Shown piece by piece: positions 24,049-29,387 of a DNA stretch of 47,943 bases. Position 1 is the stretch's first letter, and every line of letters starts with the position of its first letter. Below the pieces are notes generated by a model. The model did not search any database and was not told where the DNA came from. It was given only the letters and a program-made list of their open reading frames with translations. The stretch is from Candidatus Woesearchaeota archaeon (GTDB lineage Archaea > Nanobdellota > Nanobdellia > Woesearchaeales > GW2011-AR15). The position numbers and the translations under genes were made by a program. Location: positions 1 to 47,943 of the forward strand of contig JAFGRO010000006.1 of assembly GCA_016935095.1 (NCBI GenBank), in the 5' to 3' direction.

Positions 24049-24588
24049 TTATAAAGCCCTGACAACCACTTCTGAGAAACCTTTTCCTATTATGCAACCC
24101 ATTAAGGCTGTTCCTAACTGCAAAGGGCCCATTGCTATTAAAAACATCTGGGGAACCAAGCCTGAGAAATAAAATACAGAAGCTATTGAAAACAGGAAAA
24201 AAGCTTTTACAAAAGAAGAGCCAATGGAATTTATTACAATGTTTTTCTTTTTATTAACATAAAAATATTTTATGCCAAACCACAGCAAAGCATTTCCTAT
24301 CCATATAAATGGAATCATGTAAACTAAATGTGAGGTAAAAGAACCAAATAACAATCCTGCTGTCAATACGCCGAGAGAAGGAAGCATAATCACAGGCAAA
24401 GCTTTCCTGAAAGGATGGTGCAGTGCTGAAATCACAATCAATGCATTAATCACAGAACCAACCAATAATTGGGGATGCCCCAGAACCATTGGTAAAAAAA
24501 AGCTTACAGCAGAAAAAACCACTATTTCTATATTTTCATACAATCTGGGGAAATCATAAACCCTTTCATTAAAGTTTTTGAATTCCAT
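24049..24588 (-). CDS. six-helix membrane protein divergent to the hydrogenase
   Basis: About 179 residues, almost entirely hydrophobic: helices at about 22-40, 43-58, 63-85, 88-108, 122-145 and 150-172. The conserved-looking polar positions are GHPQLLVGSVINAL and WIGNALLWFGIKYF, reminiscent of small ECF-type S-component or transporter-like proteins seen beside FeFe hydrogenases in other anaerobes. The ATG at 24588 was chosen over an in-frame TTG 18 nt upstream. It shares a short 53-bp divergent promoter region with the hydrogenase operon, so co-regulation and a role linked to the hydrogenase (cofactor or metal uptake) are plausible but not shown. Confidence 0.6.
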   Translation of the reverse strand: MEFKNFNERVYDFPRLYENIEIVVFSAVSFFLPMVLGHPQLLVGSVINALIVISALHHPFRKALPVIMLPSLGVLTAGLLFGSFTSHLVYMIPFIWIGNALLWFGIKYFYVNKKKNIVINSIGSSFVKAFFLFSIASVFYFSGLVPQMFLIAMGPLQLGTALMGCIIGKGFSEVVVRAL

Positions 24589-24610
24589 TTTTATAATAAA
24601 AACCAAAAGA

Positions 24611-24641: not shown

Positions 24642-25040
24642 ATGAAAAGACTGCTTATGGAATTGCATGCTTTACAGGATAAGTATGGGTTCCTTCCAAA
24701 AAAGAGGTTAGAGAAATTATCTAAAAAGACAAATATTCCTTTAGCAATTATTTACAGCACTGCCACCTTCTATTCCGGTTTTGAGCTGGAGAAACAGCCT
24801 AAATATGTTATAGGTGTTGTTACATGTCCTTCATGCATTGCAAACGGGGCTCTTGAATTAATTGAATATATAGAAAAAACACTTAACCTTGAAATCAACA
24901 ACCCCAACAAAAAATGCCTTCTGCTTAAACTTCAATGCATAGGAAGATGCTATGATGCCCCTGTAATAACTATAAACAAAAAGATTTACACAAAAATGAA
25001 CAAAGAAAAATTATCAGATTTATTGAAAAAATGCAGATAG
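24642..25040 (+). CDS. nuoE: NuoE-like [2Fe-2S] subunit of the hydrogenase complex
   Basis: A 132-residue thioredoxin-fold ferredoxin of the NuoE/HoxE/HydC type. The N-terminal helical part (LHALQDKYGFLPKKRLEKLSKK, then IPLAIIYSTATFYSGF) matches the family. The cluster ligands are Cys62 and Cys65 (TCPSC), then Cys99 and Cys103 (CIGRC). The first pair has C-x2-C spacing instead of the usual C-x4-C, while the second keeps C-x3-C, and there is an extra Cys92. It would pass electrons to or from the NuoF flavin subunit. It overlaps the next gene by 10 nt. First gene of the three-gene operon. Confidence 0.85.
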   Translation: MKRLLMELHALQDKYGFLPKKRLEKLSKKTNIPLAIIYSTATFYSGFELEKQPKYVIGVVTCPSCIANGALELIEYIEKTLNLEINNPNKKCLLLKLQCIGRCYDAPVITINKKIYTKMNKEKLSDLLKKCR

Positions 25041-26134
25041 AAAAAAAACCAAACTTTAAGGGAATTGAAAACGCATTAAAAATAAGCCCTGAAGCAGTTA
25101 TAGATAAAATAAAATTATCCAAACTAACAGGCAGGGGAGGGGCATGTTTTCCCACAGGAAAAAAATGGGAGATTGCATCTGCAAACCAAGGTGAAAAGTT
25201 CTTCATTATAAATGCAGATGAGTCAGAGCCCGGTAACTTTAAAGACCAATATATTTTAAAAAATAATCCTGACTTGATAATAGAAGGTCTGTTGATAGGA
25301 TGCCATACTGTAAATGCAAAAAAAGGATTTATCTATATAAGGGATGAATACAAGGATTTAATCAAAAACCTGCAGGATTCTGTAAATAAATATATAAAAA
25401 AATATCCTCAGTTTGATATTGAAATAATTCTGGGCGCAGGGGCTTATGTGTGCGGAGAAGAAACTGCTATAATAGAAAGCATAGAAGGGTTCCCGGGCAT
25501 ACCAAGAATGAAGCCTCCTTATCCTGGTGAAAAAGGCTTTCAGGGAAAACCCACTGTGATAAATAACGCTGAAACCATAGCAATGATCCCCTTGATAATG
25601 AACAATGAATTCAATCCTGAATTAAGATTATTCTCGCTCTCAGGCAATGTAAAAAAGCCAGGGGTTTACGAATTTCCTTTAGGAATAAAACTAAAAGAAA
25701 TTATGGAAAAGGCTGAGCCAGAGGGAAAGATAAAATCTATATTTATGGGTGCAAGCGGAGGATGTTTAAAATATGACCCTGAAATAAAGGTTACACAGGA
25801 AGCATTCAGAGAAAAAAATGTATGCCTTGGCTCAAGAGGAATTATTGTAATAAATGAAAACCAGTCACTAATAAGAATGCTGAAATATATCACTGAATTC
25901 TTTATCCATGAATCATGCGGCAAATGCACGCCGTGCAGAGAAGGCAATGCAAGAATCCTTGAGCTTATTGAAAAGTCAATTGAAAAAGGGTTAACTAAAG
26001 AAGAGCATGAAAGATTAAATGACCTGGCCAATTACATCAAAGAATGCAGTTTCTGCGGCCTGGGAATGTCATCCACAACAGCATTATTGAATATATTGAA
26101 AGAATTTAAAGAAGAAATAAAATGCCTGAAATAA
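25031..26134 (+). CDS. nuoF: NuoF-like FMN/NAD(P)H-binding subunit of the hydrogenase complex
   Basis: A 367-residue NuoF/HoxF core: FMN-binding GRGGACFPTGKKW (34-46, with Cys39 where Gly is usual), NADESEPGNFKDQ (61-73), the NADH-site segment AGAYVCGEETAI, PPYPGEKGFQGKPTVINNAET, and a [4Fe-4S] site of Cys296, Cys299, Cys302 (SCGKCTPCREG) and Cys342. It lacks the N-terminal thioredoxin-like and C-terminal two-[4Fe-4S] ferredoxin extensions of bifurcating HydB proteins. It would exchange hydride electrons between NAD(P)H and the Fe-S chain. Overlaps: 10 nt with NuoE and 13 nt with HydA. Whether the complex bifurcates is not visible. Confidence 0.9.
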   Translation: MQIEKKPNFKGIENALKISPEAVIDKIKLSKLTGRGGACFPTGKKWEIASANQGEKFFIINADESEPGNFKDQYILKNNPDLIIEGLLIGCHTVNAKKGFIYIRDEYKDLIKNLQDSVNKYIKKYPQFDIEIILGAGAYVCGEETAIIESIEGFPGIPRMKPPYPGEKGFQGKPTVINNAETIAMIPLIMNNEFNPELRLFSLSGNVKKPGVYEFPLGIKLKEIMEKAEPEGKIKSIFMGASGGCLKYDPEIKVTQEAFREKNVCLGSRGIIVINENQSLIRMLKYITEFFIHESCGKCTPCREGNARILELIEKSIEKGLTKEEHERLNDLANYIKECSFCGLGMSSTTALLNILKEFKEEIKCLK

Positions 26135-27798
26135 AAATCAACGGAAAAAAAATAAAATTTGAAGAAGGCAAAACAATATTAGATGTATGCAGAAAAAACA
26201 ATATAAAAATACCTACTTTATGTTATCATCCTGACTTAAAGGCTGAAGGAAAATGCAGGCAATGTATTGTTGAGGTAAACGGAAAAATAATGACTTCATG
26301 CAATACACAAGCAAAAGAAGGTATGAACATCATTACAGAAAATGAAAAGATAAAGAAATACAGAAAAATTAACGCTGCATTACTGATGTCAAGGGTTAAA
26401 ACAAAAGACATCCTTGAAACAGAAGACATAGAAGAATTGATGGAGCATGACGGGCTGTTTGAAAACAAATTAAGGAATCTGCCCATAGATAATAAAAACC
26501 CTGCAATTGAAAGAAACATAAACCTATGCATCAACTGCGGCAAATGCATAAGAAAATGCCATGATGTTCAAAGTGTTGATGCAATATATCCTGCTTTCAA
26601 AGGAATAGAAACTATTGCAGCTACTCCTTTCTTATGCCCCCTTGACCAAACTGTTTGTACTTACTGCGGACAGTGCTCTTTGGTTTGTCCTACTGGAGCC
26701 ATAAGGGAAAAATCCAGCATAAGGGATGTTGAAAAAGCACTAAAAGATGAAGGAAAACACGTAATTATACAAACAGCACCTTCAATGAGGGCTTCTCTTG
26801 GGGAAGAATTCGGATTAAAACCAGGGTCATTAATAACAGGAAAGATGGTAACTGCCCTGAAAAAGCTCGGCTTTAATAGGGTTTTTGATACTGACTTCGG
26901 AGCTGATATGACAACCTATGAAGAAGCCCATGAATTAATGGAAAGGATTGAGAAAAACAAAAACCTGCCTATGACCACATCATGCTGCCCTGCATGGATT
27001 GTATTTATGGAAAAAAATTATCCTGAATTATTAAATCATATTTCAACCTGTAAATCGCCGCAGCAGATGTTCGGTGCAATAGCTAAAACATATTATGCAA
27101 AATTACATAATATTGACCCGAAAAATATAGTGGTTGTCTCAGCAATGCCATGCACAGCAAAAAAATTTGAATGCGAGCGCAGGGAAATGAGAAGCTCCGG
27201 ATTCAAGGATGTGGATTATGTGCTTACAACAAGAGAGCTCGGAAGAATGCTGAAGCAGAACAATATAAATCTTCCTAGCTTAAATGATTCTGAATTTGAC
27301 AAACCTTTAGGAATAAGCAGTGGCTCAGGAGCTATATTCGGAACAACAGGAGGAGTTACACAGGCTGTTTTAAGAGTTATAGAATGGAAAATGAAAAGCA
27401 TGGATGTGGAATGGGAAGAGCTTAAAAAAGTAGAGGGAATAAGGCAGATAAAATTAAAGTTAGGTGATAAGGAATTATTGCTTGGGATTATATATGGTCT
27501 TGGAAATGCAAGAAAAGTTATGGAAGATCTGAAAAAAGGAAAATGCAGATATGATTTTATCGAGGTAATGGCATGCCCCGGAGGATGTATTGGCGGAGGG
27601 GGACAGCCAAAAAGCACAGACATGGATATTGTAAAAAAGAGGTCTCTTGCATTATACAGGCAGGATGAAAAGCTTGAAATGAGAAAAGCTCATGAAAACC
27701 CTGTTTTAAAAGAAGTCTATGATAATTTCCTTGGAGAGCCTTTAAGCAAAAAAGCACATAAGTATTTACATACAAGATATTTTAACAGGAAGAAATAA
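26122..27798 (+). CDS. hydA: [FeFe] hydrogenase catalytic subunit
   Basis: A 558-residue [FeFe] hydrogenase. Domains in order: N-terminal [2Fe-2S] (Cys34, 45, 48, 60), two [4Fe-4S] motifs (Cys136/139/142/146 and Cys179/182/185/189), then the H-cluster domain with L1 TSCCPAW (286-292), L2 MPCTAKKFE (342-350) and L3 EVMACPGGCIGGGGQP (481-496). H-cluster ligands should be Cys289, 344, 485 and 489, and Cys288 the proton relay. A small-subunit-like tail (about 505-558) is fused at the C terminus. The His-Cys3 [4Fe-4S] cluster normally between the [2Fe-2S] and the two [4Fe-4S] motifs has no ligands here. Maturases HydE, F and G are not in the window. Confidence 0.96.
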   Translation: MPEIKINGKKIKFEEGKTILDVCRKNNIKIPTLCYHPDLKAEGKCRQCIVEVNGKIMTSCNTQAKEGMNIITENEKIKKYRKINAALLMSRVKTKDILETEDIEELMEHDGLFENKLRNLPIDNKNPAIERNINLCINCGKCIRKCHDVQSVDAIYPAFKGIETIAATPFLCPLDQTVCTYCGQCSLVCPTGAIREKSSIRDVEKALKDEGKHVIIQTAPSMRASLGEEFGLKPGSLITGKMVTALKKLGFNRVFDTDFGADMTTYEEAHELMERIEKNKNLPMTTSCCPAWIVFMEKNYPELLNHISTCKSPQQMFGAIAKTYYAKLHNIDPKNIVVVSAMPCTAKKFECERREMRSSGFKDVDYVLTTRELGRMLKQNNINLPSLNDSEFDKPLGISSGSGAIFGTTGGVTQAVLRVIEWKMKSMDVEWEELKKVEGIRQIKLKLGDKELLLGIIYGLGNARKVMEDLKKGKCRYDFIEVMACPGGCIGGGGQPKSTDMDIVKKRSLALYRQDEKLEMRKAHENPVLKEVYDNFLGEPLSKKAHKYLHTRYFNRKK

Positions 27799-27871: not shown

Positions 27872-28456
27872 ATGGAAAAAACTATAGAAAATCTTACTAA
27901 AGCTTTTATCGGTGAGAGCCAGGCAAGAAACCGTTACAGCATGTATGCTAAGATAGCACAAAAAGAAGGCTTTGAGCAGATATCAGAATTATTTTTATTA
28001 ACTGCAGAAAATGAAAGAGAGCATGCAAAATGGCTGTTCAGGTTAATAAATGACTTAAAGAAAAAATCAGATAAAGATTTAAAAGAGATCGAGGTTGAAG
28101 CTTCAGCCCCTACAACTCTGGGTGATACAAAAGCAAACCTGCAGGCTGCAATTGACGGAGAAAATTATGAGCATACAAAGATGTATCCTAAATTTGCAGA
28201 TGTTGCAGAAAAAGAAGGTTTTCCTGAGATTGCAAACAGGCTGAGGGCTATAGCAAAAGCAGAAGAACACCATGAAGAAAGATATAAAAAATTACTGAAT
28301 GAAGTCAAAAACAACACTGTCTTCAAAAAAGAAAAAACAGTTTACTGGGTCTGCAGGAAATGCGGCTATATTCACGAAGGCAACGAGCCGCCTGATACAT
28401 GCCCTTCATGCAGCCATCCAGGGAATTATTTTGAAAGGAAATGTGAAGAATACTGA
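27872..28456 (+). CDS. rbr: rubrerythrin
   Basis: A 194-residue rubrerythrin, a peroxide reductase. The N-terminal four-helix di-iron domain carries Glu in [11 protein letters not shown] (residue 15) and ENEREHAKW (about 49-57), and a second pair in [12 protein letters not shown] and [13 protein letters not shown]-terminal rubredoxin-like domain follows, with [10 protein letters not shown] and [11 protein letters not shown] (Cys pairs about 159/162 and 175/178). It starts after GGGGAA. It opens a four-gene set with ferritin-like, glutaredoxin and superoxide reductase genes, downstream of the oxygen-sensitive hydrogenase. Confidence 0.95.
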
Positions 28457-28465
28457 GGTGAGAAA

Positions 28466-28753
28466 ATGCTGTCTAAAATACCTATAGATTTAACTAAAAT
28501 AAAAAAAGAAAACATAAACAAAGAAATATTAAGAGCAGGACTAATAGCAGAGTATGATGCTGTCAATTTATATGAGCAAATGGCTGAACTGACTGATAAT
28601 GAAGAAATTAAGAAAGTCTTGCTGGATATAGCCAAAGAGGAAAAAGAGCATGTCGGTGAATTTCAGACATTGTTAGAAAAAGAAGACCCTGAGCTTAAAG
28701 GGGCCATGGAAGAAGGAAAAGAAGAAGTTGAAGAGCTTTTAAAAGGAGGATGA
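28466..28753 (+). CDS. encapsulin-cargo-like ferritin-like protein
   Basis: A 95-residue, two-helix ferritin-like protein with the EncFtn pattern: helix one LRAGLIAEYDAVNLYEQMAE with Glu29 and Glu37, and helix two EEIKKVLLDIAKEEKEHVGE with Glu59 and His62, then a polar acidic tail ending EELLKGG. In many anaerobes this fold is packed inside encapsulin shells or fused to them, where it oxidises and stores Fe(II). There is no encapsulin shell gene next to it, and the C terminus shows no clear targeting peptide. The ribosome-binding site GAGGTGA is 4 nt before the ATG. Confidence 0.75.
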   Translation: MLSKIPIDLTKIKKENINKEILRAGLIAEYDAVNLYEQMAELTDNEEIKKVLLDIAKEEKEHVGEFQTLLEKEDPELKGAMEEGKEEVEELLKGG

Positions 28754-28757
28754 AAAA

Positions 28758-28994
28758 ATGTCTAAAATAATTGTTTACAGCACAAAGATGTGCCCTTACT
28801 GCACTATGCTCAAGGATTTTTTAAGGGAGAAAAATATTGAGTTTGAAGCTGTTGATGTGGGGGAAGACAGGGAAAAAGCTGAAGAGATGATAAGAAAATC
28901 AGGGCAGATGGGAGTTCCCCAGATTGAGATAAACGGAAAAATCATCGTGGGCTTCAACAAATTGGCTATTGAGGAAGAATTATCAAAAATGTGA
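28758..28994 (+). CDS. glutaredoxin-like protein (NrdH type)
   Basis: A 78-residue thioredoxin-fold protein with the redox-active pair CPYC (Cys12 and Cys15), a cis-Pro segment GVPQIEINGKIIVGFN and a final short helix AIEEELSKM. It is of the glutaredoxin/NrdH family, which reduces disulfides using glutathione-independent donors in anaerobes. It may recycle peroxide-reducing enzymes in this oxidative-stress set. GGAGG precedes the start; it is 4 nt after the ferritin-like gene. Confidence 0.9.
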   Translation: MSKIIVYSTKMCPYCTMLKDFLREKNIEFEAVDVGEDREKAEEMIRKSGQMGVPQIEINGKIIVGFNKLAIEEELSKM

Positions 28995-29003
28995 GGTATA
29001 AAA

Positions 29004-29387
29004 ATGGCTAAGCTAAACAGATTTTATAAATGCAATGTCTGCGGAAACATAGTTTCTGTGGTTGAGTCAGGCGCAGGGGAATTAGTATGCTGCGGTGAGC
29101 CAATGAAACTGATAGAAGAGAAAGGGAAAGACCAGGAAGGAAAGGAAAAGCATGTTCCTGTTCTGGAAACAACTGAAAAAGGCATTATTGTAAAAGTAGG
29201 CTCTGTGGAGCATCCTATGGAAGAAAAACATTATATTGAACTGATACAGCTTATTGACGGGGATGAAATAGTTGGCGGAAAAAGATTAAAGCCGGGCGAA
29301 AAGCCCATGGCTGAATTCTGCATGGTTAAAAAACAGGGCCTGAAAGCAAGAATATTGTGCAATGTGCACGGGCTGTGGATTAATTAA
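29004..29387 (+). CDS. dfx: desulfoferrodoxin (superoxide reductase)
   Basis: A 127-residue two-domain 2Fe-type superoxide reductase. The N-terminal desulforedoxin Fe(Cys)4 site is Cys10, Cys13, Cys29 and Cys30. The catalytic Fe(His)4Cys centre has His50 (EKHVP), His70 and His76 (HPMEEKHY), and Cys119 and His122 (CNVHGLW). It reduces superoxide to peroxide, which the rubrerythrin in the same set can remove. The GAGGT upstream overlaps the glutaredoxin stop codon. It ends where the convergent yggS gene ends, with a tail-to-tail junction at base 29387/29388. Confidence 0.96.
   Translation: MAKLNRFYKCNVCGNIVSVVESGAGELVCCGEPMKLIEEKGKDQEGKEKHVPVLETTEKGIIVKVGSVEHPMEEKHYIELIQLIDGDEIVGGKRLKPGEKPMAEFCMVKKQGLKARILCNVHGLWIN

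Follow-up and report, generated by a model that had tools for sequence, protein, structure and literature searches.

We analysed a window of 47,943 nucleotides from a Candidatus Woesearchaeota archaeon. Around its centre lie three plus-strand genes, hydC, hydB and hydA, whose open reading frames overlap by 10 bases (hydC/hydB) and 13 bases (hydB/hydA), next to a divergent gene for a membrane protein:

24049..24606, minus strand: ECF S-component-like membrane protein, 185 aa, divergent neighbour of hydC, co-occurring with HydA
24642..25040, plus strand: hydC, NuoE-like thioredoxin-fold [2Fe-2S] subunit, 132 aa (PF01257, E 3e-29)
24816..24836, plus strand: HydC residues 59-65, VVTCPSC, with the first ligand pair C62-x2-C65 replacing C-x4-C, unique among 99 HydCs
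25031..26134, plus strand: hydB, NuoF core (FMN, NADH, one [4Fe-4S]), 367 aa (PF01512, 6.5e-42; PF10589, 3.3e-23), ferredoxin extensions absent
25217..25246, plus strand: HydB NADH-site signature DESEPGNFKD (non-bifurcating: K, no M; N against the usual T/S)
25433..25465, plus strand: HydB FMN site GAGAYVCGEET, Tyr being of the non-bifurcating type
25910..26059, plus strand: HydB [4Fe-4S] ligands ESCGKCTPC...C (B2/N3 cluster)
26122..27798, plus strand: hydA, [FeFe] hydrogenase catalytic subunit, 558 aa (NF040763, 720 bits; TIGR02512, 491 bits)
26221..26301, plus strand: HydA [2Fe-2S] ligands C34, C45, C48, C60
26302..26526, plus strand: place of the lost His-Cys3 [4Fe-4S] cluster (HydA 61-135), no cysteine
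26527..26688, plus strand: two HydA [4Fe-4S] ligand sets, C136/139/142/146 and C179/182/185/189
26977..27609, plus strand: H-cluster motifs L1 (26977-26997), L2 (27145-27165) and L3 (27568-27609)

The open reading frames and Pfam matches (for HydA PF02906 at 1.6e-101, PF02256 and Fer2) agree with a first-pass annotation of the DNA, which had placed overlapping genes for a NuoE-like protein, a NuoF-like core and an [FeFe] hydrogenase at 24642-27798. The contig also encodes PheRS alpha and beta (PhetRS_B1 domain), an eRF1/pelota-like protein and replication factor C and is therefore archaeal. The earlier description of an archaeal trimeric [FeFe] hydrogenase is supported, and the enzyme belongs to group A. 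[FeFe] hydrogenases in archaea, DPANN included, are credited to Greening et al. 2024 (Cell 187:3357) where that work is cited in PMC11406978. Downstream of hydA on the same strand (27872-29387) lies an oxygen-defence set of rubrerythrin, ferritin-like, glutaredoxin-like and desulfoferrodoxin genes. Within our phylum sample of 371 genomes, 34 encode HydA. Its distribution is patchy: it was found in the window's genome but in none of the five other members of the genus and family that were sampled.

Inspection of the H-cluster motifs L1 (TSCCPAW, residues 286-292), L2 (MPCTAKK, 342-348) and L3 (MACPGGCIGGGGQP, 483-496) confirmed the earlier statement that all are intact. HydA, a group A [FeFe] hydrogenase, exceeds the TIGR02512 cut-off for the H-cluster domain (491 versus 406 bits), and its cluster ligands are complete apart from the His-Cys3 (HC3) set. 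The top-ranked NCBIfam family was NF040763 (group A6, NADH-dependent) at 720.2 bits, below its cut-off of 765.

HydB defines the type of the enzyme. Judged by the residues with which Losey et al. 2020 (PMC7311640) tell bifurcating and non-bifurcating HydBs apart, the window protein is non-bifurcating: it carries FKD at the NADH site and Tyr at the FMN site and has no GGPSG. Counting against the A6 assignment are the sub-threshold NF040763 score and the Asn, neither Thr nor Ser, at the equivalent of residue 232. N- and C-terminal ferredoxin extensions are both lacking, as the first-pass annotation had seen in calling the protein a NuoF core, and its expectation that the complex probably does not bifurcate in the known way is supported by the residues and by the absence of both ferredoxin domains. 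The window thus has neither of the group A3 bifurcating features (HydB ferredoxin extensions and bifurcating residues); of the group A6 features it has the core HydB and the non-bifurcating residues, without HC3. A bifurcating enzyme with its ferredoxin site on another subunit would fit the HydABC architecture, which is common to bifurcating enzymes, and the bifurcating-type relatives in the same phylum, but given the HydB residues and the missing ferredoxin domains we consider it extremely improbable.

The closest described counterpart is the NADH-dependent, non-bifurcating Hyd1ABC of Syntrophomonas wolfei (NF040763, A6), likewise a heterotrimer with the non-bifurcating HydB signature and a core-only HydB without ferredoxin domains (407 aa, against 367 aa in the window). 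Hyd1ABC, however, was expressed together with its own maturation proteins, whereas the window's system is archaeal and maturase-free. Across the phylum sample, core HydBs (about 346-395 aa as assembled) always carried the non-bifurcating signature and long HydBs (578-646 aa) the bifurcating one, with a single departure (G030, Tyr at the FMN site). In two loci (L066 of G244 and L092 of G273) the hydB sequence runs across two reading frames, reflecting a frameshift or an assembly error.

The two larger subunits gave different trees. In the HydB tree, all 16 archaeal core HydBs grouped together (SH-aLRT 100) and joined 21 bacterial non-bifurcating HydBs (100), whereas in the HydA tree all archaeal HydAs, of both types, fell on one side of a branch against the bacteria (support 98). 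HydA thus sorts by domain of life and HydB by bifurcating or non-bifurcating type, so that their histories partly differ; the mismatch in these sequences suggests subunit exchange. The bifurcating-type hydABC of the same phylum (G034, G081, G120, G096 and others) have HydAs on the window's side of the 98-supported branch but differ from the window in a HydB of about 600 aa with ferredoxin domains and in a complete HC3; three of them have hydGEF.

The absence of HC3 ligands between HydA residues 61 and 135, pointed out in the first-pass annotation, holds: this region contains no cysteine at all. Among 109 HydAs compared, HC3 was complete in 76 of 78 bacterial sequences, the remaining two keeping the three cysteines, and in 13/13 archaeal bifurcating-type but 0/18 archaeal non-bifurcating HydAs (Fisher 5e-9 for absence between the archaeal types; 12 of the 13 bifurcating rows were assigned by HydB signature and G273, with its split hydB, by HydA clade). 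All 21 sampled bacterial non-bifurcating HydAs, the S. wolfei type, retain HC3, unlike the window. Loss of HC3 therefore marks a group, the archaeal non-bifurcating HydAs, and intermediates are present. Ten of these 18 show an H/Q-x3/4-C-x8/9-C remnant from which the middle cysteine is missing and in which, in most cases, a conserved His precedes the last Cys; the other eight, the window included, are eroded further. Three members of one genus differ in this respect: G125 and G274 keep the remnant, which G244 has lost. At HydA 86-112, eight loci (L065, L067, L069, L072, L077, L081, L084, L085) share a conserved H/Q-x3-C-x8-H-x2-C in place of HC3, a pattern that might hold another metal site.

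The HydA tree alone did not group the archaeal non-bifurcating rows together. A tree with all 18 held in one clade was not rejected by the AU test (p 0.75), its likelihood being higher by 15.5, so a single loss of HC3 followed by erosion is possible. HydB and HydC were considered as donors of the missing ligands, and neither has an evident extra cluster motif. Nor did we find a well-described hydrogenase group sharing the loss. The significance of this Y-junction cluster has been described as unknown (eLife 79361); its graded loss offers a natural experiment, confined to the non-bifurcating enzymes of archaea.

The second deviation concerns HydC. An alignment of 99 HydCs upheld the observation of C-x2-C rather than C-x4-C in the first ligand pair: in 98 sequences a cysteine stands two residues earlier, and the window alone has Val there. 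The Val codon, GTT, differs from TGT at two positions, more than one miscalled base could account for. The second pair (C99-x3-C103) is invariant in the aligned HydCs. In G047, whose HydA is the closest to that of the window, the stretch reads CTCPSC and both positions carry a cysteine, as expected of an intermediate in a ligand swap; in the window the later Cys is presumably the working ligand.

Since the AlphaFold model of HydA was too poor for cluster distances (pLDDT < 50 over residues 131-194), we took the electron path from the published cryo-EM structure of Thermotoga maritima HydABC (7P5H). This bifurcating enzyme has the same three-subunit plan and central chain, FMN-B2-A3-A2-A1-H, as the window's, which lacks its HydB extensions, bifurcating signature and HC3 (A4) cluster. 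In T. maritima, HC3 lies at the HydA-HydA interface, outside this path, and the HydC cluster sits on the far side of FMN, off the FMN-to-H-cluster chain (eLife 79361). Every on-chain cluster ligand is present in the window's HydABC. Because both altered clusters are off the chain, HC3 appears dispensable and the HydC ligand changeable: loss of HC3 should remove the bridge for electron exchange between two HydABC protomers and leave the NADH-to-H2 chain in place, and exchanging a HydC ligand would be compatible with turnover. Electrons would pass from NADH to the FMN and [4Fe-4S] of HydB, then to the [2Fe-2S] and two [4Fe-4S] clusters of HydA and on to the H-cluster. The "altered electron-entry chain" and "unusual electron path" proposed earlier are thus not sustained, as both deviations hit off-chain clusters, and S. 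wolfei Hyd1ABC already provides a described case of NADH-only chemistry on a core-only HydB. Most likely, the mechanism is the known NADH-dependent, non-bifurcating one, in an enzyme whose lineage has lost a cluster lying off the path.

A review reports HydE, HydF and HydG from every microorganism that has an [FeFe] hydrogenase and describes each of the three as essential (PMC6212873). Profile searches of the window's own genome (82 contigs, 95% completeness) returned no match for HydG, at best 19 bits for HydE and at best 40 bits for HydF, the latter to the GTPase domain only, against cut-offs of 312, 255 and 326 for HydG, HydE and HydF, respectively. All three were absent from 31 of the 34 HydA-encoding genomes of the phylum, among them the single-contig G351, the four-contig G070 and G150, and G014 and G017, which are 99-100% complete. 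Only G034, G081 and G120 carry HydG, HydE and HydF, in compact hydGEF clusters on a contig other than that of hydABC:

L097, L098, L099 (G034, G081, G120): rare hydGEF clusters of archaea, confined to genomes whose HydB is of the bifurcating type

Among 40 bacterial relatives, 27 have HydG, including 5/5 isolate genomes (p 2e-7 against the archaeal HydA-encoding genomes), a conservative contrast because incomplete bacterial MAGs inflate the absences. An ordinary A6-type hydrogenase whose hydEFG is in the cell, but unassembled or unbinned, would be consistent with the fragmented assembly of the window's genome, with the three phylum members that carry hydGEF apart from hydABC, and with bacterial relatives whose MAGs also lack HydG (13/40). 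As the absence extends to the one-contig, two four-contig and two 99-100% complete genomes among the 31, we find this explanation unlikely; the one-contig G351 comes close to a closed HydA-encoding genome of this order that has no hydEFG.

As known [FeFe] hydrogenases need HydEFG, an enzyme without maturases may lack activity or contain just the [4Fe-4S] part of the H-cluster. The absent maturases would suit a HydA with a lone cubane [4Fe-4S] or another metal site, working as an NADH-linked oxidoreductase rather than a hydrogenase. The pocket speaks against this. Throughout the maturase-less archaeal HydAs, counted where the alignment has letters (30-31 archaeal rows), the residues lining or serving the diiron site do not vary: C299, K358, M353, M497, S323, P324, E279, E282 and S319 (CpI numbering) are all kept, as they are in 27 HydG-bearing bacteria. 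Of these, C299, K358, M353, M497, E279, E282 and S319 serve only the diiron site or proton path. We therefore judge a non-hydrogenase role quite unlikely. HydA dN/dS was 0.09-0.11 among the close relatives G125, G244 and G274; purifying selection and the conserved active site argue that the window's HydA is still an H-cluster enzyme. The first-pass annotation had held that loss of the maturases would count against its reading; the loss is real, but the diiron residues and purifying selection oppose that consequence. With no HydE, HydF or HydG, yet a diiron pocket kept and a dN/dS of about 0.1, the [2Fe] subsite has to be supplied by some other route.

HydEFG could be replaced by unrecognised genes in the archaeon's own genome, which has 45 radical-SAM matches, mostly covered by the HydE and HydG searches alone. 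These profiles reach distant radical-SAM kin in control genomes but found nothing relevant here. Ten radical-SAM proteins typed in two compact HydA-encoding genomes belong to other families, none of them HydE- or HydG-like, the remaining matches there being covered by the HydE and HydG searches, and comparison of neighbourhoods revealed no shared extra gene beside hydABC apart from the ECF-S-like gene. Replacement by the archaeon's own genes is thus very unlikely.

Overall, we regard HydABC as probably an NADH-dependent, ferredoxin-independent, non-bifurcating group A6-like enzyme that has lost the off-chain HC3 and obtains its [2Fe] subsite in an unrecognised way. The genes and motifs, the HydB signatures, the loss of HC3, the missing maturases and the sequence conservation are observed, while its activity, the direction of electron flow and the source of the subsite are what we infer. 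The subsite would most simply be acquired from a partner or host cell. What stands out is that HydEFG are systematically missing while the active site is conserved: a phylum-wide set of archaea that have a conserved HydA and none of these maturases makes it directly testable whether an H-cluster can be made or obtained without HydEFG.

The 185-aa ORF at 24049-24606 had no match in Pfam or NCBIfam, while its bacterial homologues match PF12822. Relatives adjoin hydABC in more than a dozen genomes, and a profile of the protein detected it in 28/371 phylum genomes, 26 of which encode HydA (p 1e-30). In 11 of these 26 the gene and hydABC lie on separate contigs, so the association cannot be due to linkage alone. 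For its AlphaFold model (pLDDT 90), Foldseek pointed to the ECF S-component fold, with probabilities of 0.94 for ThiT and 0.91 for RibU (TM about 0.5), but with E > 0.1. EcfT (PF02361) is absent from the window's genome and from 33/34 HydA-encoding genomes. The protein may be a solitary vitamin or flavin importer or may import something for the H-cluster. It is no simple maturase replacement, since three of six bacterial genomes with a homologue have HydG and three do not, and the archaeal G034 and G120 have both the protein and the maturases. That a DPANN group runs [FeFe] hydrogenases without HydEFG, receiving the diiron subsite or a precursor from a partner cell, possibly via this protein, is a tentative proposal to which we give a small chance.

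For the NADH-dependent, non-bifurcating enzyme, gene neighbourhoods offer a metabolic setting. In G150, a member of the window's order, and in G233, hydCBA runs directly into the type I (NAD-type) GAPDH gene gap and then pgk:

L081:3608-9076; L095, L096 (G150, G233): hydC-hydB-hydA-gap-pgk string

Relatives of gap and pgk also occur near hydABC in G295 and G336. HydABC would reoxidise NADH from sugar breakdown and evolve H2. Bifurcating-type archaeal hydABC or hydA genes lie near pta and/or ackA in L082, L086, L089, L071 and L093 (G096, G188, G030, G291 and G128). Both kinds of neighbourhood fit an H2-evolving fermentation, with NADH as the donor for the window's type.
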